This document shows positions 3 to 27,804 of a DNA stretch of 30,228 nt, in pieces. This stretch comes from a virus. Below the pieces are notes generated by a model. It made no database searches. It was not told the DNA's origin and worked only from the letters and a program-made list of their open reading frames with translations. Numbering within the stretch: position 1 is the stretch's first letter; every line of letters begins with the position of its first letter. Location of the stretch: IMG/VR virus record IMGVR_UViG_3300030102_002108, positions 23,482-53,709 of that record; one strand, given 5' to 3'. The translations under genes were made by a program, and so were the position numbers.

Positions 3-3000
3 AAGGGTATTGACTTGACTAAAGAGGTCGTGTCTGCCTCCAGCAGAAAGGCAAGAATCAAGGCTGCTCGGGACGGGGTGAAGAAAGTCTTTGCTTCAGA
101 GAAGGGTCAGGCTGTCAAGTCTTGGTTTGGCGAGGGTGCTGAAGAAGGAATCATCACCTCACTAGACCAGCTCAACAGAATCAGCGCCGAGGTTACATCC
201 GGCAGGATGAGCAGGCAGGAGGCGATTGATGAGTACTGGAACCCATATCAGATTGCAGACTCTTTCTACGCAGGTTTCCTTGGGGGCGGTGTGGGTGCAT
301 CTCCTTTCATTGCGGCTAAGGGTGTTAGTGCCTTGGGCTCTAAGTTCACACTCTTTGACAGACTCGAGCTCAAGGACAGAAAGGTGTTCTTGCTTGAGCA
401 GCTTGAGCGGGATGACCTTAGCGCAGAAGAAAAAAAGGGGGTCCGTGCTGAGCTTACAAAGATTCACGAAGACGCAAACAGGCTCGTTAGAAAGGACGTG
501 GACTTCTATTCTCAGATGGAGAATGAAGACATGACGGAGATTATCCGCTTGAATCAAGAAATCTCTAACAAAAGAAAAAGAGCACGAGCGCTTTCAAGAG
601 CACAGGGTGCAACAAATCAGAATCAACTTCAGGCACTGGCCAATGATGTGCGCAGCTTGATGGCGCAAAAGCTAGAGATTGAAAACAAGTACGAGTCGGC
701 TAACGCTGGATTCGACATGGACGTGGAGGCTCAGACGCGCAACAACCAAGAGGTAGAAAGACTCGTGGAGGACATCATGAATGTGGACCAAGAGTGGGAC
801 AGCGTAACAGAGGGGCAGGGCAACACGGGGGCAGGTAAGATTGTTTTGACTGACAACAACACAGACACGATTCTATCTCGCCTTTTGGCCAAGGGAATCA
901 AGGGTACTAGGTTTGCTACAGCAGAACAAATTCGTGACGGCATCGTCGGGGCATTCAACATGGCCAAGGCAATCAAGGCAGACAACCCTGACGCTGAGGT
1001 CATCTTGGTCAACAGCAAAGAAGCGTTTAAGCGCGAGGTGGCAAAGGCCGGGAAGGTATCGCCAAGCAAAATACAGCTTTCTCGAGGTATGCACATATCT
1101 AAGGACGGCGGTACTGTAGTGCTGTACGCTCCTGCTCTCAAGACAAATACAGGATACCACGAAGGATTCCACCAAGCGGTATACCGTCAGATGCTCAAGG
1201 ATGGTGTGAACCGTGGTGAAGCTATGATTCGCTTGGCTTCTGCTCTGCGCAGAGGCATGACCAAAGCGCAGCTTGCCAAGTACGGCAACTTCGTAAACCA
1301 ATACGGCAATGTCTCTGAGGCGCTCAAGGCTGAGGAGTTTTTGGCTGAGGTGTTTAGCGACATGGCCGATGGAGAAATCGACATCCAGTTCCACAAGGGA
1401 ATCGTAAGCGGTTTTGCACGTTTTGTGAAGCAAGCGCTTAGCGCAAAGGGGGTCAAGATGACCAACACACCCGTGCTCCAAGACGTAGCGAACGGTCTTC
1501 GTGACGCAGCAGAGTACTTCTCAGAGGGCGAAGGAGGCGCTCAGGGGGCCCTTGCTGCCGTTTTAGACGCCTCAGGTAGGCTCAGACCCGGATTGGGTAG
1601 AGAAGGTCTCTTAAACAGGCTAGAATTGCGTCGTCACAGAAACGCTCAGACCAGAGCTCAGGCGCATCAGCAGTCAGATGACCTTGATTCTACCGTAAAA
1701 GCACAAGATAGACTCAACGAGCCTAGTGTTTTGGGTGACTGGACCAAGGATGCACTGACGTTTGATGCCAACGGCAACGTCAAGCTGACTCATGTGGGGC
1801 CACAGAACTTGGAAGGAGGATTCATTGACCCGCGTAGGTTTGGCCAGCAGCCATACACCACCGACCAGCGTGGTGACAAGGTTGCAATGTTCTACGTCAA
1901 GCCTGAGGACCAAGAGAGCATGGTGAGAGGCCGGGCCTACGAGGCTACGGTACCGCCGCAAATGCTGTACGACTTGTTCAAGGACCCACTCAACCTGTAC
2001 GACACAGCACTCAAGGCGTTTAGGGATGCAGGTAACGTCGTTGCATTCGACGGAAACAAGCAGGCAGAGTGGATTGGGTACGAGGCTCGCAAGCAGGGCT
2101 TCGATGGCATGGTCACCAAGTGGCGCAACACTGCGCGTGTGGACATGTGGGTTCCTGTACGTCCCGATGAGAACGGCGGGTACTCACCTGCTGGTACCAA
2201 GATGACAGAGGCCGACATCTCCCCTGCCAAGAACAACCAATACGCTGTGGCTGCTATCGCAAAGAACATGCGGGAGGCAATCGCGGCGCACAAGGAGAAA
2301 GGCACGGGGGTAGACGGTCAGACAACACCACTGAAAGAGGAGACCATCCAGCGCATGATGGATGAGGGCACTACCTTCTACGTCGGCAACAACAGACTCA
2401 GCTCGGGCGTCGTGTCCTACGTGGACAAGGACGGCTACATGGGTGGACTCACCAAGCATCCAGACGTACCACTTCGTGGGGTGCAGGCTGAGATGCTGCG
2501 TAAGCGTATCGAGGATGGGGGTAACCACCTCGAGTGCTTCGACACCTACCTTGTAAAGAACAACATTGCTGCAGGATTTGTCCCTGTGGCTAGAATCCCA
2601 TTCGATGTAGATAGGGCTCCCGAAGGATGGGACGCACCTAACTCAACCCTGCGTGACAAACCAGACCTAGTCTTCATGGCGTACGACCCTGCGGCTGCGC
2701 TTGACGCAAAGCCCGGGGACGGCGTCAGGGCCAAGTCCTACGACGAGGGTCTTGCCATGGCTCGCTCTAGAGGAGAGGGTGCTGTGGATACTTCAGACGT
2801 TCTCAAGCGCCAAGCTACTGAGTTTGACGAAGGTGATGCGAAGGCAATCAAAGAGAACGATGGCGAGGCTATCGGTAGCTTCTACGAGCTTCTAGCTTCT
2901 AAGGCCAAGAGCTCTCAGGGTGCGGTGTACAGGTACAGAGGATTCTTTGAGGGCATGTCTCAGGGCAGGATGATTTTTGTCGACGAGCAGGTCCCAAAGA

Positions 3001-6000
3001 ATGCAGAGGGGTATGCGGATAGGTTTATCGAATTTGTATTCAGACCGCTAGACAGCGGCAGAATCCTTGACGAGCAGCTTGCTGGCAGACAGCCGGGCGA
3101 GGATGCAAGGCCAATCCCGCAGAAAATGAAGGAGGGTCGTGTGATTAAGCTTGACGAGTGGTTTGTCACTAAGCCAATCGACGCCGAAGGTAAGATTATT
3201 AAGGGGGCAGAGAACAGAGGTAGCGGACTTGGAACTCGCTTCCTGAATATGGCACTAGAGGTGGCTGATGAGCTTGACATTGACATCGAGCTCATGGCGT
3301 ACCCAACTAAAAACTATCAGGGCACAGAGCGTCAGAACGACGCTGCAGCCAAGAAGCTGACAAAGTACTACCAGAAGTTTGGCTTTGTACCGACATCAGA
3401 GTACAGCCGCACAATGATTCGTGTGGCTCAGCAGAACCTTGACCAGCTCAATGCTGAAGAGACACAGGCAACTCAGGACTTGGGCGATGCAACCAAGGCG
3501 CAGGCTATCGAGGCCACTATTCAGTTCGACACAGACACGGGTCGCAAATGGACGGTGCGCAGAAAGTTTACGGACGAGAAGCACGTCAAGAACTTCATCA
3601 ACTACATCGAGAAGAAGAAGGGTTACACGTTCGACGAGAGATGGAATCACGACACGCCGCCTGATGTCGACCCACCTGAGGTTAGCGGAGTCACCAAGGC
3701 ACAGCAACTTGCCATTGACGCCATCAACTCAGAGACACCGGGTGAGCTGACGCAGAGCATTCAAGTGGCTCGCGCACTCAACAAGTTTGCAGGTGAGCCT
3801 GTGAAGAGTGAGGGCGAGATGATGACGCGCTTCCTCAACAACGTGTATGAGGAGGCCGGGTTCTACCTGAACCAAAAGGATGCACGTACTGGCGGTATCA
3901 CGTGGTACACCGAGGACATTCAGGAAGCCAAGCAGAAGATGGGGATTATCTTCCCTGCCCTGCAAGGAGAGGCCATGGGCAGTATCGGCTCAGCATTGCT
4001 TGCTGTACTATCTCCGGGTAACAGCCCTATCGGCAACATGACTACGCTGGCTGCCGTACTGCGCAACACACCAATCGACCAGCAGCGCTCAGGCAACTTC
4101 TCCCGCGACTGGGGAGGGGACAAGATGAGCTTTATTGACAAGAAAGGCAGGTCAGTGGCGTCGGGCAGAGTTGTTAAGGAAACCAAAACACACTTCATCG
4201 TTCAGGGTGTAGATGCCTTGGGCCGAGAGAGTAAGTACAGAAACGGACAAAACTTCCGCGTCAAGATTGCCAAGAAGGACCTGAAGGCTGGATACCCTAA
4301 GCCCACTGGATACACCACTAGGGGTAGAACTGTGGCCAAGCAGCTTGACAAGCTTCAGTCTTTGTTTGAGAGATTCAAGACACCTGAGGCTGTGGTTAAG
4401 TTCCTTACGACAGACCAGCCAATCGAGGTGCTCAGAGAGTTCAACAAGTCCGTGCCTGACACCAAAGGCAAGGTCAACAAGAACCCTGCACCCGGGCGAC
4501 GCAAGGGAGCGTACATCTTCGGAGAGAAGGTAGGCAGCTTCTTCCTCAACATGGAGGGGCTGGGCGAGTCGCTGACATCTGACCTGTGGTTCAACAGAAC
4601 TTGGAACAGATACGCAGGCACCATGATTGACACGGTGAGCGGTAAGGAGACTATCGTCGAGGTTCCTCGTAGCGAATCAGAGCGCAGACTTCAGAGCGAA
4701 GCTGTGACTCAGGCAGCCAATGAGCTTGGACTGACTACTGCAGAACTGCAGGCAACCATGTGGTACTTCGAGCAAGAGCTGTGGAGAAGCATGGGTGTGA
4801 ACACACGGAGTGAAAACTATGCGATGGCGATTGACAATGTCGCCTCGAGAATGGACCTAGACAATGATACAAGACAAAGACTTGCGGCAGCTGGAGTCAA
4901 CCTTGACGCGGCTGAAGCAAAACGGGAAACTGCCGTCAGTAGAGCAGATTCTAAAGGCATTGAGAAATACCGCGCCCCGCAAGAGCCCGGCACAGAGATA
5001 AAGGCACAGCCGATAACCTCAGTCACCGACCCAGATGGCTCGAGGTTTACGGACTTCAAGGGTGTGTGGGGGGCTCTCGCTAACGCAGGAATCCTCATGC
5101 ACGGCACCCCAGCTAACTTTGCCAAGTTTGACAATGACATCGCGTTTGGGCCCAACGTCCCCGGACTCTATGGCAACGGCACGTACCTGACTAGGAATGT
5201 AGACAAGGCCGCCGCGTATGGCAAGAACGTCATCTTCATTGACGGTCAGGGCCTGAACCTAGCCAACATGTACAGCTTTAGGCAGGGTGCTAGAGTCACC
5301 ACTGCACTGAACAAGCTGAACCAGCTGGGGCCACAGAGCTATGAGGTACACAAGAAGATTGCCATGGATGCCCGCAGAGGTATGGCTCAGAGACCCAACT
5401 CCCCACTAGGATTTAGGTCTGAGGTTGGCAAGAACCCTGAGATACTCGTAGAGAGAGTTATCGCCGAGACGGTCAAGCAGATGCAGGATACAAACAATCA
5501 GCTTGGCTCCGGCAGAACAACTATCGAGACCCTGCGTAACGTCATGTACGGGGACAACGGCAAGCCGGGTGTTGCTGTCAAGGCGATGATTGACTTCCAA
5601 AGAGAAGTTAACAGATTGAGATACGAGGGTATGGACCCCGCTGAGGCGCAGCTCAAGGCGCTGGGTGATGGGCTAGGAAGCAGGGATGCCATTGACGATG
5701 CCATGGCGATTGCCAGATACACGTTTGCAGAAATCGTACGTCAGGCAGGATTTGATGGCTACTACTTCTCCGCTGAGATGGACAGGGGGTATCAGGGTAT
5801 CGAGCGCAGAGCCAAGGAGGGTAAGCTTGAGACAAGAGAGCAGCAGGAGATGAAGCTCGAGGCGCTGGAGATTGCAGGCACCGACGGAGGTTTCGCACAA
5901 GAAGCCATCATCGTCAACACCGACAGACTCAACGACCTCATCATCCCAGCAGAGAATGTAATCGCTGCTGCAGTCAGTAGAATTACTGCAGAGGAAAGCA

Positions 6001-9000
6001 CGATTGACCAAGGTGGGCAGATGGGCAACAACGGCATCATCAACGAAGGTATGCGTGATTCTCAGAATCTGCTCAAGGCACAGCCATTGCAGGGATTCCT
6101 CGACGACTACGACGCTGACATGAACACACTGCGTGGCGAGAGACCACCAGCCCGTATCGACAGAGAGGCAGAGATGGGTAAGGTGCAGCGTGCTATGCTC
6201 GGCATCATGGAGTTTGTGTACGACAAGTTCTACAGAGCCATCCGCTACCAGCGCGACATCGAGAAGGCTATCGGTGGCAGGGTGATGCAGGAGCAAGACT
6301 ACGCCATGGCGCTGTCACTGCTTGACGGTAAGGCATCGCGTAGGTTGCAGAGTGTAGACATGTTCATGGAGGACTTGGCTGCAGTCATGAATAAGTTCGG
6401 CATCTCGCACAAGGAGCTAAGCGACTTCCTGTATGCTATGCACGCAGAGAACCGTAACGCTGTACTGCGTGAGCGCTTCGGTAACAAGAAGCTTTCTATC
6501 ATGGAGTCGATTGCCAAGCAGGCAGCGCTCATCAACGACGAGCAAACCTCTGACACGGCCAAGCGTAAAGCGTCTAAGAAACTTGCTGACCTGCAAGAAG
6601 AGCTGGCTGACGTAGAGGCTAGACTGGAGAACGACAACTTCTCAGGTAAGACCGACGAACAGGCACGCAGAGAGATTGAAGAACTCGACAGCGAAGGCAT
6701 GCGTCAGGCATACGACATGGTGATGGAGTTCCAAGCAGAGACTCGCAAGCTGATTGTAGAGTATGGCTTGGAAACACAGGCCACTGTTGATAAGCTTGAG
6801 GCGTTGTACCCAAGCTATGTCCCGCTTAGCGGATTTGCCATTGACGAGGACGGAGGCGCCGAGGCACGTGAAGCAGGCTACCTGCACATGCACCAAGCAA
6901 GGGTGTTCCGTGGAATCAGAAGAGCAGAGGGTCGTACCAGCTTGGCTGACAGCCCGCTCGACTACATCTTCGAGAGACGGTACCAAACAGTCATGGCTGG
7001 CGAGAAGAACCTTGCCAACTCCAGACTGCTCAACCTCTTGGCTGACAACCCGGACAAGGACCTGTACAAAATCTACGGACCGAAAGATGCTACTCCAGTG
7101 CTGAGAGGCAAGCGCCGTGGCATGACCCGCGATGAGATGCGCAACAACGACAGGTTCGTTGAGGTTGTCATCAATGGTGAGTCGTTCTTCATGGAGTTCG
7201 CTAACTCTGCTGTGGCTCGTGCAGTCAATAAGCACAACATCCTCAAGTCACCCGAGGGCGTACCCGGCATGATATTCAATGCCATTCGTGGCCTTGGTAG
7301 ATTCCTGTCAAGCACCTTTACAAGTTACTCCCCTGACTTTATTGTAGCCAACTTCACACGTGACTTGCAGTTTGGTTTGGGGTCACTACTTGCTGAGCAG
7401 GAGATTGAGGGCGGTCAAGCGTTCGGTGAGAACCTTGTCAAGTCTACAATGAAAAAGCACCTGCCATCTCTTGCGTTCCTGTACAAGAACCTGCAGGGCG
7501 TTGAGGACACAAGCCACCCGATGTACAAGGCGTGGCAGGAGTTCCAAGATTCAGGAGCTATCACTGACTGGCCATACGCCAAGAACAGAGACAAGCTGCG
7601 CTCAGACCTCGAGACCCTGACTAGAATGCAGCAGGGTGGTGCTGGGGTTAGCGCTGTCAAGGGGCTCAAGGCAATCGCTGACTACGTGAACAACACCAAC
7701 ATGGCGGTTGAGAACGCAATCAGATTCGCTGTGTTTCAGTCGGCTAGAGAGGCAGGCATGAATGCGGAGAAGGCAGCTTACTTGGCTAAGGAGCTCACCA
7801 TCAACTTCAACAGAAGTGGTAGTGGTGGTTCTGTGATTAACGCTTTGTACCTGTTCTTCAACGCAGGCGTTCAGGGTACAGCTAAGTTTGCACGCACACT
7901 GCTGCAGCTCAAAAAGGTTCCTAACGGACGTGGTGGATACTACAGAACACTCAACAGCTCACAGAAGATTGCCATGGGCATGACGCTGTTTGCTGCCGCT
8001 CAGGCTGCGCTGAACCAAGCCATCTCTGATGAGGACGAGGACGGCAGAACTTTCTACGAGAAGATTCCTGACTACGTCAAGGAGCGCAACATGATTGTGA
8101 TGATTGGCGGCAAGGACTACATCAAGGTTCCTTTGCCCTACGGATACAACATCTTCCACAACATGGGCACCATGTCGTACGAAGCAGCCACTGGCATCAG
8201 GACTGCTGGTGATGCTGGCATGTTTATGATTGGCGGCCTAGTGAACTCGTTTATCCCAATCTCGTTTGGTGAGTCAAGCACGCTGTTTAACAAGAGCTTC
8301 AAAGCGTTTACGCCAACCTTCATGAGACCATTCACAGAGATTGCAATTAACGAAAGCTACTTCGGAACTCAAGTGTACAAGGACAATGCACCGGGTCAGA
8401 ACCTGCCTATGTCTTCACTGGGCTCGCGCTCACCTGAGTGGCTGCGCGATGTCACCATGTTCTTGAACGACGTCTCCGGCGGCAACGAATATGAGAAGGG
8501 ATACCTTGACATGTCTCCAGACAAAATCTGGCATGCCTTCGAGTACTACGGTGGTGGTGGATACAGATTCCTCAAGAATACCTACAAGTCTATCGAGACT
8601 CCGGTGCAGCACTTGCAAGGATACTCTGACGACAAGGACGAGGTTGCGGGTAAGGTGCTCTCTACGATGCCGATTGTGCGTGTGGGGTACGGGACGTACA
8701 ACTCTCGTGTAGACATGGCTGACTACTACAAGTTCAGAACCACTGTTAAGCAGGCGGTCGAGGCTAGGGAAAACCTGAACCTCGATGAACCAAGAACGCG
8801 AGCAGCTGCTGCGCTTGAGGCTGAAGGTAGAAAGGTTGACAAGGCCTTGCAAGCAATGCGTAAAGACATCAGGGCCATCAAGGACAAAGACATTGACCCA
8901 GCTCTCGAGGCTAGGGAGATTGATAAACTAGAACAGGAGATGCTCAGACTTGTGCTCTCATTCAACAAACAATACCTAGAACAATATGAAGGAAGAAAGA

Positions 9001-9011
9001 AAAAAGATTAA
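3..9011 (+). CDS. Giant polyvalent virion protein, 5' truncated
   Basis: The frame is open from the left edge to TAA at 9009-9011, so the gene starts outside the window; TTG at 15 is only the first possible in-frame start (residues below count from it). Visible parts in order: a Gly-rich hydrophobic stretch near 84-103; a charged helical region 110-250; an HExxH metallopeptidase motif HEGFH at 382-386 with a downstream EEFLAEVF glutamate cluster (440-445); an ADP-ribosyltransferase-like domain near 590-720 (LTH, H593); a GNAT acetyltransferase-like domain near 1000-1140 with the acetyl-CoA loop NRGSGLG at 1067-1073; a second, clearer ART/PARP-like domain near 1695-1985 (HGTP at 1696, LYGNGTYL at 1718-1725); a C-terminal region from about 2428 resembling the LPD38 polyvalent-associated domain (SYSPDFIVANFTRD). 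Known family role: proteins of this type are packaged in virions and thought to be ejected into the host to modify or protect. The separate activities are inferred from motifs only. Arginine is mostly AGA/AGG. Confidence 0.9.
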   Translation, partial: KGIDLTKEVVSASSRKARIKAARDGVKKVFASEKGQAVKSWFGEGAEEGIITSLDQLNRISAEVTSGRMSRQEAIDEYWNPYQIADSFYAGFLGGGVGASPFIAAKGVSALGSKFTLFDRLELKDRKVFLLEQLERDDLSAEEKKGVRAELTKIHEDANRLVRKDVDFYSQMENEDMTEIIRLNQEISNKRKRARALSRAQGATNQNQLQALANDVRSLMAQKLEIENKYESANAGFDMDVEAQTRNNQEVERLVEDIMNVDQEWDSVTEGQGNTGAGKIVLTDNNTDTILSRLLAKGIKGTRFATAEQIRDGIVGAFNMAKAIKADNPDAEVILVNSKEAFKREVAKAGKVSPSKIQLSRGMHISKDGGTVVLYAPALKTNTGYHEGFHQAVYRQMLKDGVNRGEAMIRLASALRRGMTKAQLAKYGNFVNQYGNVSEALKAEEFLAEVFSDMADGEIDIQFHKGIVSGFARFVKQALSAKGVKMTNTPVLQDVANGLRDAAEYFSEGEGGAQGALAAVLDASGRLRPGLGREGLLNRLELRRHRNAQTRAQAHQQSDDLDSTVKAQDRLNEPSVLGDWTKDALTFDANGNVKLTHVGPQNLEGGFIDPRRFGQQPYTTDQRGDKVAMFYVKPEDQESMVRGRAYEATVPPQMLYDLFKDPLNLYDTALKAFRDAGNVVAFDGNKQAEWIGYEARKQGFDGMVTKWRNTARVDMWVPVRPDENGGYSPAGTKMTEADISPAKNNQYAVAAIAKNMREAIAAHKEKGTGVDGQTTPLKEETIQRMMDEGTTFYVGNNRLSSGVVSYVDKDGYMGGLTKHPDVPLRGVQAEMLRKRIEDGGNHLECFDTYLVKNNIAAGFVPVARIPFDVDRAPEGWDAPNSTLRDKPDLVFMAYDPAAALDAKPGDGVRAKSYDEGLAMARSRGEGAVDTSDVLKRQATEFDEGDAKAIKENDGEAIGSFYELLASKAKSSQGAVYRYRGFFEGMSQGRMIFVDEQVPKNAEGYADRFIEFVFRPLDSGRILDEQLAGRQPGEDARPIPQKMKEGRVIKLDEWFVTKPIDAEGKIIKGAENRGSGLGTRFLNMALEVADELDIDIELMAYPTKNYQGTERQNDAAAKKLTKYYQKFGFVPTSEYSRTMIRVAQQNLDQLNAEETQATQDLGDATKAQAIEATIQFDTDTGRKWTVRRKFTDEKHVKNFINYIEKKKGYTFDERWNHDTPPDVDPPEVSGVTKAQQLAIDAINSETPGELTQSIQVARALNKFAGEPVKSEGEMMTRFLNNVYEEAGFYLNQKDARTGGITWYTEDIQEAKQKMGIIFPALQGEAMGSIGSALLAVLSPGNSPIGNMTTLAAVLRNTPIDQQRSGNFSRDWGGDKMSFIDKKGRSVASGRVVKETKTHFIVQGVDALGRESKYRNGQNFRVKIAKKDLKAGYPKPTGYTTRGRTVAKQLDKLQSLFERFKTPEAVVKFLTTDQPIEVLREFNKSVPDTKGKVNKNPAPGRRKGAYIFGEKVGSFFLNMEGLGESLTSDLWFNRTWNRYAGTMIDTVSGKETIVEVPRSESERRLQSEAVTQAANELGLTTAELQATMWYFEQELWRSMGVNTRSENYAMAIDNVASRMDLDNDTRQRLAAAGVNLDAAEAKRETAVSRADSKGIEKYRAPQEPGTEIKAQPITSVTDPDGSRFTDFKGVWGALANAGILMHGTPANFAKFDNDIAFGPNVPGLYGNGTYLTRNVDKAAAYGKNVIFIDGQGLNLANMYSFRQGARVTTALNKLNQLGPQSYEVHKKIAMDARRGMAQRPNSPLGFRSEVGKNPEILVERVIAETVKQMQDTNNQLGSGRTTIETLRNVMYGDNGKPGVAVKAMIDFQREVNRLRYEGMDPAEAQLKALGDGLGSRDAIDDAMAIARYTFAEIVRQAGFDGYYFSAEMDRGYQGIERRAKEGKLETREQQEMKLEALEIAGTDGGFAQEAIIVNTDRLNDLIIPAENVIAAAVSRITAEESTIDQGGQMGNNGIINEGMRDSQNLLKAQPLQGFLDDYDADMNTLRGERPPARIDREAEMGKVQRAMLGIMEFVYDKFYRAIRYQRDIEKAIGGRVMQEQDYAMALSLLDGKASRRLQSVDMFMEDLAAVMNKFGISHKELSDFLYAMHAENRNAVLRERFGNKKLSIMESIAKQAALINDEQTSDTAKRKASKKLADLQEELADVEARLENDNFSGKTDEQARREIEELDSEGMRQAYDMVMEFQAETRKLIVEYGLETQATVDKLEALYPSYVPLSGFAIDEDGGAEAREAGYLHMHQARVFRGIRRAEGRTSLADSPLDYIFERRYQTVMAGEKNLANSRLLNLLADNPDKDLYKIYGPKDATPVLRGKRRGMTRDEMRNNDRFVEVVINGESFFMEFANSAVARAVNKHNILKSPEGVPGMIFNAIRGLGRFLSSTFTSYSPDFIVANFTRDLQFGLGSLLAEQEIEGGQAFGENLVKSTMKKHLPSLAFLYKNLQGVEDTSHPMYKAWQEFQDSGAITDWPYAKNRDKLRSDLETLTRMQQGGAGVSAVKGLKAIADYVNNTNMAVENAIRFAVFQSAREAGMNAEKAAYLAKELTINFNRSGSGGSVINALYLFFNAGVQGTAKFARTLLQLKKVPNGRGGYYRTLNSSQKIAMGMTLFAAAQAALNQAISDEDEDGRTFYEKIPDYVKERNMIVMIGGKDYIKVPLPYGYNIFHNMGTMSYEAATGIRTAGDAGMFMIGGLVNSFIPISFGESSTLFNKSFKAFTPTFMRPFTEIAINESYFGTQVYKDNAPGQNLPMSSLGSRSPEWLRDVTMFLNDVSGGNEYEKGYLDMSPDKIWHAFEYYGGGGYRFLKNTYKSIETPVQHLQGYSDDKDEVAGKVLSTMPIVRVGYGTYNSRVDMADYYKFRTTVKQAVEARENLNLDEPRTRAAAALEAEGRKVDKALQAMRKDIRAIKDKDIDPALEAREIDKLEQEMLRLVLSFNKQYLEQYEGRKKKD

Positions 9012-9426
9012 GGACACCAAGCTTGGGTCGTGGCTGAAGAAGGCCGCGCCCGGAGTCCTCGACAAAGTTGCTGACTTGCTCCCCGACCAAGGGGGGTTGG
9101 GCATCGTAAAGAACCTGCTTGACAACGAGCCAAGTGTTGACCCAGTAGAGGCCAAGGCAATGCTCGATGCAGAGGTGCAGTTCCAGAACAACGTCAGCGA
9201 AAGATGGAAGGCTGACATGGGTAGCGACGTCAAGCTCGCAAAGCTCATCAGGCCAGTGACATTGATTGCTCTCATGTCGATGTTCATGGTAACCATGGTG
9301 CTCGATTCACTTGACAATCTGCCATTTAACGTAAAAGATTCCTATGTATCTTTGCTGGAAATCCTTATGCTCACAGCATTTGGTGCGTACTTCGCAGGTA
9401 GAACCATTGAGAAATCCAAAAGATGA
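8986..9426 (+). CDS. Holin, 3-TM gene-transfer-agent type
   Basis: A 146-aa protein with a charged N-terminal half (KADMGSDVKLAKLIRP), then a hydrophobic helix near residues 88-108 and a second one near 115-138 ending in YFAGRTIEKSK. This matches the arrangement of the GTA_holin_3TM family, where a polar segment precedes RP and the last helix ends in a Y-F-G-R-x-x-E-K-like signature. Expected role: it forms inner-membrane lesions that time lysis. It starts at ATG 8986, inside the 3' end of the polyvalent gene (26-bp overlap), and its stop overlaps the next start as ATGA, so translation is probably coupled along the cassette. There is no strong Shine-Dalgarno. An inner-membrane structural role is the alternative. 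Confidence 0.75.
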   Translation: MKEERKKIKDTKLGSWLKKAAPGVLDKVADLLPDQGGLGIVKNLLDNEPSVDPVEAKAMLDAEVQFQNNVSERWKADMGSDVKLAKLIRPVTLIALMSMFMVTMVLDSLDNLPFNVKDSYVSLLEILMLTAFGAYFAGRTIEKSKR

Positions 9427-9557
9427 ACGAAGAAGACTTCGGCAGCTGCAGCTTCCTTGACCAAGACAAGCTCAAGAAGCAGGAAAAGAAGATTGAATCA
9501 GGTGAGATTACCTGCAACATCGAAAACCCAGAGGACTGTGAATCTTGCAGTGGGTAA
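9423..9557 (+). CDS. Cysteine-containing microprotein (44 aa)
   Basis: A short acidic ORF starting at an ATGA overlap with the holin stop and ending at TAA 9555-9557. It begins MNEEDFGSCSF, is rich in Lys/Glu in the middle, and has four cysteines (C9, C31, C39, C42), the last two as CESC near the C-terminus. There is no signal peptide or TM segment, so it is probably cytoplasmic; the Cys pattern could bind a metal but does not match a family I recognise. Support for reality is the exact 4-bp coupling on its left and the overlap with a secreted-protein gene on its right. Length and lack of homology keep confidence moderate. Confidence 0.6.
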   Translation: MNEEDFGSCSFLDQDKLKKQEKKIESGEITCNIENPEDCESCSG

Positions 9558-10584
9558 GTCGCTAAAGCTTTTCTTAGCATGCGTATTGTTAAGCGTGGCA
9601 ACTGTCGCTCAAGGACAGCTGCTGCGCTTTTCTACGCTGTATGGTAGCCTCACAGCCAACGCCCCACTCGTAGAGAACTCTGTGTACAGGGTCAACGGAG
9701 TAGCAGGCTCTGGATACCTTGAGGAGATTACCGAAGTCAACAAGGCTAACTACGTCTTCAGTGTTGGCCTGCGCAAGCTGGCAAGGTTTGACTATCAGGT
9801 CAAGCAGGGCCAGTTCTACACAGGTCAGGAGAACGAGATTAGCGACAACGCCACGGTGTCAAACGCTCCCGGTTGGGAGTATCTGCTGGAGTACTCAGCT
9901 GTTCGGAACAGGAACGACGTGTTCACTCAGCAGGAGTACAGGTTGCGCTACTCAGGCAACTGGTTTACGGTTCGTGGTAGCTACATTCAGAACGGACTGG
10001 TCAACCTCAAGTACACTCAAGCAGAGGTCAGGCTACGCAAGAGACTTGGTGAGTTTGACTTCACCGTAGGCGCAGCTCACAGGGCACACCCGGTGTACGG
10101 CTACTCCCCCATCGAGGCGTGGTTTGACGACCCAGCCAACAAGCACTGGTGGCAGCTGGCCAACGAGTACGGCTTCTACAGTGACGACGAAGAGGTGTGG
10201 CGTCTCAACGGGGACGTCATTGCTCAGTCAGACGTAGAGTTCTACGGCTACCACTTCGGTAGGATTGTGAACGACTACAACAGAAGAGAGCTAGATGAGT
10301 TTGGTTTGCAGCAAGAGCTGTCAGCTGTGGTGGGTATGGACTACTACCACTACACGGAGCAAGCTTGGGTGCATGGCTGGTGCTCTCTGTACTCCATGCA
10401 CAGGGGCTTGAGCGACCTATCGTTTGAGTACGAAGACAACATGGATATTGAGTGGGACGCAGGTCTCATCATTGGAGCAAAGCTTAACAAACATCTTAGT
10501 ATATTTGTGGAAGCCAGACACTTACAGTACTGGCAGATTAACTCATACGCAGGCCGCGCAGGCTTCAACTACTTATTCTTCTAA
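9550..10584 (+). CDS. Phage-encoded outer-membrane beta-barrel protein
   Basis: About 344 aa. Starting at GTG 9550 gives a classical signal peptide (GKSLKLFLACVLLSVATVA then QGQ). GTG 9538 also keeps the signal peptide; longer starts only add a basic tail, so I prefer 9550 (8-bp overlap with the previous stop). The mature part is a run of alternating amphipathic, aromatic-rich strands, for example YRLRYSGNWFTVRGSY and AGLIIGAKLNKHLSIFVEAR, with acidic turns, and it ends in FNYLFF. A terminal aromatic residue is typical of barrels recognised by BamA. No enzymatic motif is evident. Location is inferred as the outer membrane of a Bacteroidota host. Because it follows the holin, roles in outer-membrane disruption at lysis or in receptor masking/superinfection exclusion are both plausible. 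Confidence 0.7.
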   Translation: MGKSLKLFLACVLLSVATVAQGQLLRFSTLYGSLTANAPLVENSVYRVNGVAGSGYLEEITEVNKANYVFSVGLRKLARFDYQVKQGQFYTGQENEISDNATVSNAPGWEYLLEYSAVRNRNDVFTQQEYRLRYSGNWFTVRGSYIQNGLVNLKYTQAEVRLRKRLGEFDFTVGAAHRAHPVYGYSPIEAWFDDPANKHWWQLANEYGFYSDDEEVWRLNGDVIAQSDVEFYGYHFGRIVNDYNRRELDEFGLQQELSAVVGMDYYHYTEQAWVHGWCSLYSMHRGLSDLSFEYEDNMDIEWDAGLIIGAKLNKHLSIFVEARHLQYWQINSYAGRAGFNYLFF

Positions 10585-10586
10585 CT

Positions 10587-10862
10587 ATGGCGAAGGTCGG
10601 AGAGAACACAGAGGTTACCCTAGACCTCAAGACACTGGGGATGGTAGCTGCCGGAATTGGCAGCATGGTTGCTATGTGGTTCTCGCTTCAAGCCGACATC
10701 GCCGAAGCCAAGGAGTTGCCAGCCCCACACGCACCTGAGATTACTCGCATGGAGTTTGACATGAAGGACCAGCTGGTTCGTCAAACAATCATGAGCACAC
10801 AGGAGGATGTCACCGAGATGAAGGAGGACATCAAGATGATTAAGGAAAAGCTGTATGAATAA
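10587..10862 (+). CDS. Small single-TM protein with coiled-coil tail
   Basis: A 91-aa protein starting at ATG two bases after the barrel gene stop. Residues about 16-38 (LGMVAAGIGSMVAMWFSL) form one hydrophobic helix, preceded by a short polar N-terminus. The C-terminal 45 residues are heptad-like and charged (TQEDVTEMKEDIKMIKEKL), predicting a coiled coil. There is no cleavable signal. The topology (TM anchor plus long helix, adjacent to holin and periplasmic genes) resembles i-spanin-like or holin-accessory proteins, but no sequence signature proves it. Its stop overlaps the next start by 8 bp. Confidence 0.75.
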   Translation: MAKVGENTEVTLDLKTLGMVAAGIGSMVAMWFSLQADIAEAKELPAPHAPEITRMEFDMKDQLVRQTIMSTQEDVTEMKEDIKMIKEKLYE

Positions 10863-11226
10863 GTTGCTTCTCCTGTTGTTGCTGCTGCCTGCCACAGCAT
10901 TCTCACAAAGCTTTCTGGAGCTGGATGAGCTTGACGCCAAGAAGTCCAAGGGGATTACGGTTGTTGAGTTCTGGGCTGAGTGGAATAAGTCCAACGAGGT
11001 AGCGTTCCTCAATGACCTCAAGGACTGCAGAGCGTACCGCATGTGCATTGACCTTCAGCCCAAGGCGGTCGGTCAGTACAGCATCAGCAGTGTGCCAACA
11101 GTTGTTGTGTTTGACAACGGGCTAGAGGTGTTGAGATTTAACCCAACAATCATGATGCAGCTTGCTGCCACCAAGGATGAAATCCAAGAAGAGATTGACG
11201 ACATTATTCTAAAAAAGTTTCAATGA
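10855..11226 (+). CDS. Exported thioredoxin-fold protein lacking the CXXC site
   Basis: A 123-aa protein with a signal peptide (MNKLLLLLLLLPATAFSQS), then a thioredoxin-like core: ITVVEFWAEWNKSNEV at about 34-49 followed later by ISSVPTVVVFDNG with the conserved cis-proline. In thioredoxins the WC(G/x)PC active site follows FWAEW; here the same place reads W43-N-K-S-N, so both catalytic cysteines are gone. Two other cysteines (C58, C64) remain, in the helix after the site and near the next strand. The fold call is strong; redox activity at the normal site is excluded by sequence. A binding or chaperone role in the periplasm is inferred. It overlaps its neighbours by 8 and 4 bp. Confidence 0.8.
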   Translation: MNKLLLLLLLLPATAFSQSFLELDELDAKKSKGITVVEFWAEWNKSNEVAFLNDLKDCRAYRMCIDLQPKAVGQYSISSVPTVVVFDNGLEVLRFNPTIMMQLAATKDEIQEEIDDIILKKFQ

Positions 11227-11750
11227 TGAAGAAGTTACTTTCTACCATCACCACGGTACTTATGCTGTCTCCTGTGTGGGCACAGCCTAACGTCACGCCT
11301 GTGTTCGTTGAGTGTACCCCCGGTGAGTACCCCAACGAGATTTCGTGGGAGATTATGACGTGCGACAGCACGGTTCTTTTAGATGGCGGCGCACCTTTCT
11401 TTGGTGCAGCCCTGATGCCAGACCCAGACAGGTTTATCATTCACATGATGGACAGCTACGGTGACGGATGGAACGGAGCCTACTTGATTGTAGACACAGT
11501 TTCGTACGGCTTCCTGTCTGACGTAGACTGGATTGATTCACTGGGCACATGGCCACAGGACCAGCCCGAGCAGTGGGTGACCGTGGGTTGCAACGACCCA
11601 GTCACCGATGTACAAGAGATTACTCAGGAGCCATTCGTTCCTACTCGCTACTACAACCTGTTTGGTCAGGAGGTGGTGTTGCGTGAGCGCGGCTACTACA
11701 TTGCCACTGACGGCATGCGTTCTCGACTGATTTACAGAAGAGAAGAATAA
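11223..11750 (+). CDS. Secreted protein with DxxGDGWNG motif and T9SS-like C-terminus
   Basis: A 175-aa protein. A signal peptide MKKLLSTITTVLMLSPVWAQ is followed by a Cys-containing domain (C31, C47, C123) with DSYGDGWNGAYL at 77-88, a motif I know from secreted proteins of marine Bacteroidota and other marine microbes. The last ~38 residues (TRYYNLFGQEVVLRERGYYI then a basic RREE end) look like a type A T9SS sorting domain: a yN-l-G-qev strand, a G-x-Y strand, a turn with DG, and a last strand with basic residues. If it works, the protein would pass the outer membrane through the host T9SS. Start ATG 11223 overlaps the thioredoxin-like stop as ATGA. The function of the mature part is unknown. 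Confidence 0.7.
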   Translation: MMKKLLSTITTVLMLSPVWAQPNVTPVFVECTPGEYPNEISWEIMTCDSTVLLDGGAPFFGAALMPDPDRFIIHMMDSYGDGWNGAYLIVDTVSYGFLSDVDWIDSLGTWPQDQPEQWVTVGCNDPVTDVQEITQEPFVPTRYYNLFGQEVVLRERGYYIATDGMRSRLIYRREE

Positions 11751-11764: not shown

Positions 11765-12268
11765 ATGGAACAAGGAAAAAAGAAAGCCATGATGGCACAA
11801 GGTGGCATGATGGATAAAGAAATGCAGATGATGCCCGGTGGCGGGCACATGAAAAAGCAAATGATGGCCGAAGGCGGCATGATGGAGGAGCAGAAGATGC
11901 CCGGTGGTGGCATGATGGAGAAGCGCCGTATGATGATGGAGGAAGGCGCCATGATGGAGAAGAAGGATATGGAGAAGGGTGGTATGATGGAGTATCAAGA
12001 GGGCGGCATGATGGAGAAGAAGGCCGCTGTCATGAAGATGCTCGACGGCATGAAGGAGATGCCACCAGAAGAGGAAGTCGTCAAGATGATTATGAAGTCG
12101 GCAGGAGTCGACGAGTCAGAGGCCAAGGCCCTGATTGCTGAGTACAGACAAAGCAAGAAAGGCATGGGTGGCAAGATGGAGTACGAAGGAGGCGGAGCTA
12201 TGAAGATGATGCGTGACCCAAAGGACATGGTTGGCATGGCCATGGGTGGTGCAAAGATTATCAGCTGA
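11765..12268 (+). CDS. Methionine-rich GGMM-repeat protein
   Basis: A 167-aa protein in which about 40 residues (roughly a quarter) are methionine. The N-terminal half repeats a (G)GGMMEK-type unit: five GGMM copies and one GAMM copy between residues 14 and 86, separated by Lys/Glu-rich spacers. A non-repetitive segment follows (about 90-135, EEEVVKMIMKSAGVDESEAKALIAEY cut here as two helices), shaped like a small UBA/CUE-like two-helix unit, then another GGGAMKMM patch. It has no signal peptide or TM segment. Methionine clusters can bind soft metals such as Cu(I), or give flexible hydrophobic surfaces; neither can be decided from sequence. Similar GG-M/K low-complexity proteins occur in marine phage genomes. 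It is convergent with the next gene (8-bp stop-to-stop overlap). Confidence 0.8.
   Translation: MEQGKKKAMMAQGGMMDKEMQMMPGGGHMKKQMMAEGGMMEEQKMPGGGMMEKRRMMMEEGAMMEKKDMEKGGMMEYQEGGMMEKKAAVMKMLDGMKEMPPEEEVVKMIMKSAGVDESEAKALIAEYRQSKKGMGGKMEYEGGGAMKMMRDPKDMVGMAMGGAKIIS
11801..12020 (+). repeat. In-gene repeat encoding GGMME/GAMME units
   Basis: Six imperfect copies of a GGYATGATGGA-type word occur at irregular spacing inside the Met-rich gene. Third-base differences (ggc/ggt before atg) show that the copies have diverged and the protein motif is kept more strictly than the DNA. This favours selection on the peptide over recent slippage. Confidence 0.7.
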
Positions 12269-26519: not shown

Positions 26520-26813
26520 ATGGCAAAAGCAAAAAAGAAGGCCAAGACTTACAACACTTACGCTGCTGGTGGTAAGGTGAACGCTATGACTTACGACCAA
26601 GTCAGAAAGGGTATGGCCGACGGAACTGTCAAGCTCGCCAAGAAGTCATTCGCCTATGGAGGTAAGATGTACAACCAAGGCGGTAAGCCCGACTACATCG
26701 ACATTGATGGAGACGGCAACAAGACAGAACCCATGAAGGAAGCGGCCAAGGAAGCAAAGACGCCTAAGGCTAGGAAGGGAATGTTCCTCAAGAAGAAGAC
26801 GAAGAAGAAGTAA
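26520..26813 (+). CDS. Lys/Gly-rich protein with DIDGDGN loop (97 aa)
   Basis: Very basic at both ends (MAKAKKKAKTYNTYAAGGK; MFLKKKTKKK). Middle: AYGGKMYNQGGKPDYIDIDG, followed by DGNKTEPMKEA. The D-I-D-G-D-G-N loop resembles a Ca2+-binding EF-hand/dockerin loop, and the P-D-Y-x-D-x-D-x-D-G-N-x-x-E-x-M-K pattern recurs in marine phage small proteins. The function is not established; a virion-associated role is inferred from neighbours. The stop shares a base with the next ATG (TAATG). Confidence 0.75.
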   Translation: MAKAKKKAKTYNTYAAGGKVNAMTYDQVRKGMADGTVKLAKKSFAYGGKMYNQGGKPDYIDIDGDGNKTEPMKEAAKEAKTPKARKGMFLKKKTKKK

Positions 26814-27307
26814 TGCACCTTCAAGTACTCAGGTTCTCAGATAGCGGGGACTCGACCAATGGTATTTTGGTTGAGCTGTTCCCTGATGGGCGAGAGTTCT
26901 TGTGCTACACTTTGGAGGATGAAGAGCGCAAGAGGAAGAAGTATGCGGAGACCCGAATCCCTGAGGGGACATACGACATCACGCTTCGGACCGAGGGCGG
27001 GTTTCACGCCAAGTACTCCGAGCGGTTTCCCGACATCCATGAGGGCATGCTCTGGGTGCGAGACGTACCTAACTTTGAATACATCCTCATCCACTGTGGC
27101 AACACAGACGAGCACACAGCAGGATGTCTTCTGCTTGGTGACAGCCAAGAGAACAACCAGCTCGTGGATGATGGATTCATTGGCAAATCAACACAGGCGT
27201 ACAAGAGAGTGTACCCAAAAATTCTAAAGGCACTTAACAACGGGGAGGATGTTCGCATCGAGTACATCGACCTCAATGATGTTATCATCGCAAAACTGAA
27301 CTTATGA
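26813..27307 (+). CDS. DUF5675-family protein, possible peptidoglycan-related
   Basis: A 164-aa protein with the family's order of motifs: FLCYTLEDEERKRKKYAETR, IPEGTYDITLRTEGGFH, then VPNFEYILIHCGNTDEHTAG and CLLLGDS. The IPxGtY, VPxFexILIHxGNt and T-x-G-C-l-l-G signatures make the family call firm. DUF5675 proteins are frequent in phages and mobile elements near lysis genes; the invariant His and Cys (in IHCGN and AGCLL) recall L,D-transpeptidase-like active sites, but enzymatic activity is not established to my knowledge. No signal peptide. Here it is separated from the holin by the replication block. Confidence 0.85.
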   Translation: MHLQVLRFSDSGDSTNGILVELFPDGREFLCYTLEDEERKRKKYAETRIPEGTYDITLRTEGGFHAKYSERFPDIHEGMLWVRDVPNFEYILIHCGNTDEHTAGCLLLGDSQENNQLVDDGFIGKSTQAYKRVYPKILKALNNGEDVRIEYIDLNDVIIAKLNL

Positions 27308-27804
27308 GAACTAAGAAGATGCAAGAGGGCGGCATGCCCGCAATGAACAAGATGGCTCAGCGCAAGGCGATGACCCAGAAAGCAGCTGCCACTAGCAGCG
27401 GAACCTTCCGCGACCCCGAGCACGGTTCACCATCTATGCCACTGGCCTCTGATGTAGAGCGCAAGTTTACTGGCACCACAGCAATGGGTGACCCATACAC
27501 TGCTGACGAAGCAACACTCGTCCCCGGACAGATTACAGGATACAACGTAATCGAGCAAGATGACGGAAGTGTATTCCAAGAAGCTGTGTACAGCGACCCT
27601 ACCATTGACCCGGGCGAAGAGGCCGCCGATGTCTCAGGCTCAGGTGAAGACCCCTTGCAGACTGGCGAGCAAGGCATGATGCTCCAGAAAAGAAACATGA
27701 AGGCTGAGAAGGGAGCTATGATGAAGAAGTTCAAAGAAGGCGGGTTCTCCGTAATGGACCCCGTTGACTTTGTCGCAATGTTGAGGGACAACAGAAAGAA
27801 GTAA
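27304..27804 (+). CDS. Met/Gly-motif protein (166 aa)
   Basis: The N-terminus (MRTKKMQEGGMPAMNKMAQR) and C-terminus (MKAEKGAMMKKFKEGGFSVM) carry the GGM/GAMMKK motif of the Met-rich protein at 11765-12268. The acidic middle (ITGYNVIEQDDGSVFQEAVY, then a Pro/Glu/Ser-rich linker) is different. ATGA-type overlap with the DUF5675 stop. It may be a virion or scaffold-associated protein related to the GG-motif group; no enzyme motif. Confidence 0.75.
   Translation: MRTKKMQEGGMPAMNKMAQRKAMTQKAAATSSGTFRDPEHGSPSMPLASDVERKFTGTTAMGDPYTADEATLVPGQITGYNVIEQDDGSVFQEAVYSDPTIDPGEEAADVSGSGEDPLQTGEQGMMLQKRNMKAEKGAMMKKFKEGGFSVMDPVDFVAMLRDNRKK

Follow-up and report, generated by a model that had tools for sequence, protein, structure and literature searches.

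The window, by which we refer to the whole stretch of DNA analysed here, spans 30,228 nucleotides and corresponds to positions 23482-53709 of a viral record of 53.7 kb. It harbors a compact module that starts with a holin directly behind a giant open frame and ends with a small exported protein and, away from this module, a gene of the DUF5675 family. The features, with coordinates relative to the window, are:

3-9011, giant open frame of 3,002 amino acids just 5' of the holin, coding for a polyvalent protein with an LPD38 domain
8986-9426, + strand, holin of the GTA-type 3TM holin family (PHROGs phrog_3427 'holin', E 3.2e-21)
9423-9557, + strand, 'mini', a Cys-rich ORF of 44 amino acids overlapping the end of the holin gene and the beginning of the barrel gene
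9550-10584, + strand, predicted outer-membrane beta-barrel with signal peptide and GTG start (AlphaFold model, PDB fold matches and relatives)
10587-10862, + strand, TMcc, a protein with an N-terminal transmembrane (TM) segment and a C-terminal coiled coil (at least 588 relatives)
10855-11226, + strand, Sec-exported thioredoxin fold with N-x-x-N replacing CxxC (PF00085, E 2.7e-4)
11223-11750, + strand, Sec-exported protein of 175 amino acids with a DSYGDGWNG domain, whose N-terminal domain is homologous to the type IX secretion system (T9SS) cargo of relatives
26813-27307, + strand, DUF5675 protein, a probable endolysin encoded away from the module (PF18925, E 6e-27)

From the holin to the secreted protein, stop and start codons of consecutive genes overlap or nearly abut all along. 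An earlier note made from the sequence alone had described six overlapping reading frames behind the holin, five of which are closely coupled, whereas the sixth, a Met-rich frame at 11765-12268, lies 14 nt beyond the secreted ORF and is present in the nearest relatives only. This frame and another one at 27304-27804 are Met/Gly-rich low-complexity sequences with tandem repeats and no family match. The giant LPD38 frame, too, is limited to the module's nearest relatives. The mini ORF is kept in the nearest relatives and can in others be traced by its CExC[GS] tail, and small acidic ORFs with a C-terminal C-x6-9-CE-x-C-[GS][GS] are found near the module in many phages, with 20 distinct tails (examples being 9423-9557 of the window, L009:7160-7303, L025:7253-7408 and L122:2967-3110, where L numbers denote related loci). 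The reading frames of the module are under strong purifying selection, with dN far below dS in NG86 comparisons to four relatives, and recur in the same order in dozens of contigs, which both argue against their occurrence by chance. A scan for promoters and terminators returned hits at chance level only.

The protein assignments of the earlier note were confirmed in part. Its holin matches a PHROGs family of that name, with the protein of one relative also matching PF11351 (GTA_holin_3TM), and the three proposed Sec signals can be read directly from the sequences of the barrel, the thioredoxin-fold and the secreted protein. For the barrel, a start at TTG 9457 is unsupported; as relatives start at or near the signal peptide, translation most likely begins at GTG 9550. 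Its AlphaFold model, which is of moderate confidence (pLDDT 68), displays about 12 long strands, and the PDB matches listed for this model are essentially all outer-membrane beta-barrels, the best being the 12-stranded EstA, Tsx, KdgM, NalP and NanC with VIA Z up to 16.3 (EstA, 208 residues at 3.8 Å rmsd). Together with the signal peptide and a C-terminal F, the model agrees with the predicted outer-membrane barrel, and not with the unrelated virion fold that had been named as a possible objection. OMPLA and LpxR are also among the fold matches, but inspection by eye recognised no matching catalytic set in the barrel. Its assignment as a PorP/SprF protein (PF11751) was rejected, with no Pfam match for the barrel and an hhalign comparison of 19 barrels to 6 flavobacterial PorP/SprF sequences yielding a probability of 9.6 that covers the signal peptide only. 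Relatives of the barrel were found in 28 viral contigs at 49-98% identity and none in the GTDB genome collection, and BFVD contains one clear viral relative, the unnamed A0A516LKJ4 (E 3.6e-21, 25% identity).

The ORF at 10587-10862 is, as had been proposed, a TM coiled-coil protein, which by sequence contains a single N-terminal TM segment and, in its nearly invariant C-terminal half, a coil, and which is devoid of cysteines. At least 588 relatives were confirmed among viral contigs, and four contigs, all binned into MAGs, in the GTDB genome collection. TMcc, the barrel and the secreted protein lack a significant match to any Pfam, PHROGs or NCBIfam family. All three are also without significant match in 50,697 phage records, and a tblastn search of INPHARED with the three proteins and with distant barrel and TMcc versions returned nothing significant. 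A second TM-coil family (phrog_20984) is encoded just 5' of M15 endolysins at L025:9838-10164 and L163:3486-3908. The latter locus belongs to Pelagibacter phage HTVC027P, whose gp15 resembles the second TMcc of L025 and is located two genes before an M15 peptidase, but is unannotated, lacks an annotated barrel or thioredoxin neighbour and originates from a phage whose host belongs to another phylum. One relative has a DUF2279/phrog_26616 'lipoprotein' gene that separates TMcc from the thioredoxin-fold gene (L019:9295-9597).

The claim of an inactive thioredoxin is also borne out. The family profile matches PDB thioredoxins with an E-value of 1e-11, which confirms the fold, and the window protein contains WNKSN where thioredoxins carry WCGPC. 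CxxC is present in none of 99 distinct proteins of this family, and an alignment of 102 sequences shows Asn at both former Cys positions in all scorable sequences, with an invariant Cys further downstream and a retained Pro-Thr motif. A role of this invariant Cys in a disulphide bridge to the cargo was discarded, as it is kept where the cargo is absent.

The gene set is conserved over a broad range of sequence divergence. Nearly all of the 28 barrel contigs also encode TMcc and the thioredoxin-fold protein and usually a secreted protein in the same order, with changing neighbours, and the adjacency of barrel, TMcc and thioredoxin fold is kept down to about 30% barrel identity. The counts given here come from contigs that are mutually related and were picked by similarity to the cassette, and with the best 80 of the at least 588 TMcc relatives covered they are not representative of all relatives. 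Among these 80, TMcc and the thioredoxin fold occur together, mostly as barrel-TMcc-thioredoxin; at 47 non-redundant, fully flanked loci, the thioredoxin fold is found in all 47 and the barrel in 44, and barrel and TMcc are spaced within 20 nt in 83 of 85 cases. The gene order, whose absence from related phages would have weakened the earlier proposal, is thus kept in very many of them. At L004, genomes with primases of 54% identity share a TMcc of 99% identity. Of 14 records with TMcc but no barrel at the locus, which were searched at full length, 13 are free of a barrel, including records of 61.5, 53.5, 39 and 38 kb, and one encodes it elsewhere. Most barrel-free loci contain TMcc and the thioredoxin fold, sometimes a second TMcc, and then M15 and holin. 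Since this pair is kept with M15 and holin in barrel-free records, it looks like the core of the module, with barrel and cargo as additions. Our literature search found no paper on the barrel-TMcc-thioredoxin gene set.

The secreted protein of the window had been described as T9SS-like. Its signal peptide and DSYGDGWNG motif are evident, but the resemblance to T9SS cargo is weak, with no match to the sorting domain (TIGR04183/PF18962) in Pfam or NCBIfam at E<=1. When compared to the sorting-domain profile, its tail and those of near relatives score as a set no better than shuffled decoys, with the window protein's own tail near the top of the decoys. There is also no significant match in PHROGs and none to a PDB fold at E<=1e-3, and this protein may remain periplasmic. 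It has only the N-terminal domain in common with the large secreted proteins of relatives (hhalign probability 94.7, E 5.6e-8). The commonest relatives examined encode such a Cys-rich protein of about 670-990 amino acids directly 5' of the barrel, with a 4-nt stop/start overlap at 30 of 41 cargo-barrel junctions. At E<=0.01, a T9SS type A sorting domain is detected in 37/39 (TIGR04183) and 35/39 (PF18962) of these large proteins. Routing via the T9SS is thus supported by curated domains in relatives, but not for the window's own protein.

As the T9SS is limited to Bacteroidota and close relatives (PMC7468147), the cargo of relatives makes Bacteroidota the likely hosts. Two of the four MAG labels of TMcc contigs agree with this assignment (Winogradskyella and Flavobacteriales), whereas the other two (Nitrosopelagicus and Maricaulis) are at odds with it, perhaps through binning errors. 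Genes for proteins carrying a type A sorting domain are also described for Cryophages, where the cargo consists of variable enzymes and a PA14 protein, unlike the single conserved cargo type found here, which in relatives of the module is coupled to barrel, TMcc and thioredoxin fold in a lysis region; the passage on these phages mentions no comparable operon (PMC7468147). The location of a T9SS cargo gene directly 5' of an outer-membrane barrel gene in relatives also recalls the SprB-SprF and PorP-SprF cargo-barrel pairs of the host T9SS, but by profile comparison the barrel of the module is unrelated to PF11751 and the cargo sorting domain is of type A instead of type B.

The surroundings of the module relate it to lysis more firmly than the earlier note could tell. 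At 36 of the 47 non-redundant, fully flanked loci, recognised lysis genes are found within 5.2 kb, and none was recognised nearby at the remaining 11. In the next relatives, with barrels of mostly 50-61% identity, an overlapping M15 endolysin (PF08291, phrog_894) and then a holin come behind the secreted gene, with overlaps at 21/25 junctions between secreted gene and M15 and at 32/36 between M15 and holin. Elsewhere, a DUF5675 gene abuts the holin (L004), a PG_binding_1/Amidase_2 lysin is located directly behind the thioredoxin fold (L159), and a phrog_33083-like endolysin-like gene and Phage_holin_4_1 are encoded within the next 2 kb (L158). The module is thus found in lysis operons whose peptidoglycan hydrolases are of four unrelated kinds, often with translational coupling, and the holins beside it are likewise unrelated, including phrog_3427 types, Phage_holin_4_1 and a 70-residue protein with two TM segments.

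Among 62 related records, M15 occurs in 30, DUF5675 in 16 and both in none, an exclusion with a naive hypergeometric chance of 2e-6, the true significance of which is lower because the records are related and partly fragments. This pattern and the neighbourhood of DUF5675 and holin in L004 suggest that this phage probably uses the DUF5675 protein at 26813-27307 as its endolysin. The H-x-G-N and G-C residues of this protein are reminiscent of the YkuD fold, which it may share, and a weak match to the Tlde1 domain is in line with this; no solved structure of DUF5675 was found. With an M15 endolysin adjacent in relatives and DUF5675 in the window, the absence of an endolysin asserted in the earlier note is probably wrong, and the premise that the barrel takes its place does not hold. 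What remains of the proposed envelope-spanning, holin-tied and Bacteroidota-adapted set is supported by the kept gene order, the fold of the barrel and the abutting lysis genes.

A search for lipoprotein spanins came back negative. A simple lipobox pattern, which detects lambda Rz1 and T7 gp18.7 but not P2 LysC, revealed no convincing outer spanin of a two-component system in the record or near barrel-less TMcc genes, no lipoprotein replacing the barrel at barrel-less loci, and no convincing lipobox protein with a C-terminal TM segment as found in unimolecular spanins. A spanin survey lists two phages of Croceibacter (Flavobacteriaceae) without spanins and remarks that an outer-membrane protein could act as outer spanin (PMC6139136). 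In a later survey, where outer spanins were filtered by lipobox, the only spanins reported for Bacteroidetes phages are unimolecular (PMC12596118). TMcc resembles the inner-membrane partner of two-component spanins such as lambda Rz-Rz1 and T7 gp18.5-18.7 in being a small lysis-operon protein with N-terminal TM segment and a presumably periplasmic coil, and both systems are expected to reach the outer membrane. The module differs by having a beta-barrel and a thioredoxin fold instead of a lipoprotein partner, with no sequence relation detected.

We thus favour, with somewhat less than even confidence, a role of the module in the outer-membrane stage of lysis in Bacteroidota hosts as a substitute for spanins, acting on the outer envelope late in infection. 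TMcc would be anchored in the inner membrane and extend its coil into the periplasm, the redox-dead thioredoxin would be its periplasmic binding or scaffold partner and the barrel the outer-membrane element, while the secreted protein may be an accessory located in the periplasm here and, via the host T9SS, at the cell surface in relatives with large cargo. Once the inner membrane and peptidoglycan have been breached by holin and endolysin, a complex of TMcc and thioredoxin fold would engage the outer membrane, via the barrel where present, and disrupt it in the manner of lipoprotein spanins. This reading is supported by the proximity of lysis genes at most loci, the gene overlaps, the varied lysin partners and the pairing of TMcc and thioredoxin fold with M15 and holin without a barrel. 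Further support comes from the lack of a convincing lipoprotein, the inner-spanin layout of TMcc, the published remark on outer-membrane proteins and the two Croceibacter phages without spanins. Conversely, TMcc is devoid of Cys, unlike most two-component spanin pairs, which taken together contain it (PMC6139136). Rupture of the outer membrane hardly explains a large T9SS cargo, barrel-less operons contain no recognised outer-membrane partner, and the 11 loci without recognised lysis gene nearby also argue against this reading. Finally, the lysis regions of many phages collect accessory genes.

The large cargo is better explained by the main rival reading, a remodelling of the cell surface, which we consider rather unlikely. 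Barrel and T9SS cargo would alter or mask the surface, with TMcc and thioredoxin fold aiding export or assembly, so that competing phages, or the own progeny encountering cell debris, fail to adsorb. The near-universal sorting domain on the large proteins encoded 5' of the barrel and their frequent 4-nt junctions with the barrel gene favour such superinfection exclusion. As T9SS requires the proton motive force, its cargo must act before the holin fires. A role in superinfection or competition was suggested for earlier phage T9SS cargo (PMC7468147). Against exclusion stand the loci where TMcc and thioredoxin fold occur with lysis genes yet without barrel or cargo, the absence of a detected sorting domain from the secreted protein of the window, and the coupling of the module to M15 and holin, which suggests that it is expressed late.

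The same operon linkage would be expected if TMcc and thioredoxin fold, as sensor or antiholin in the periplasm, delayed or triggered the holin and barrel and cargo formed the outer part of this sensor. Periplasmic antiholins such as T4 RI exist and a redox-dead thioredoxin would suit a pure binding role, but a holin-specific regulator would not predict the retention of the module with unrelated holins, and we regard control of lysis timing as improbable. We give least credence to unrelated accessory genes (morons) travelling together, since, despite the frequency of outer-membrane barrels in phages (BFVD list) and the presence of bor in the lysis region of lambda, the order and spacing of barrel, TMcc and thioredoxin fold are kept over strong divergence, TMcc is nearly identical where primases are not, and bacterial-genome relatives are absent for the barrel and limited to four MAG contigs for TMcc. 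Lambda Lom and Bor, which are also phage-encoded outer-membrane proteins, with bor adjoining lysis genes, are single genes acting on the lysogen and not a coupled multi-gene set.

Little is known about how phages breach the outer membrane of Bacteroidota, and surveys that filter outer spanins by lipobox (PMC12596118) would miss a module composed of barrel, TMcc and thioredoxin fold. With at least 588 viral contigs, the module is abundant among uncultured virus sequences. It provides concrete candidate genes, connects T9SS cargo with a phage operon that encodes a barrel of its own, and suggests that DUF5675 is probably an endolysin of phages. More tentatively still, we propose that a lipoprotein-free system of TMcc and redox-dead thioredoxin, usually with a barrel and often with T9SS cargo, may replace spanins in many uncultured phages of Bacteroidota.
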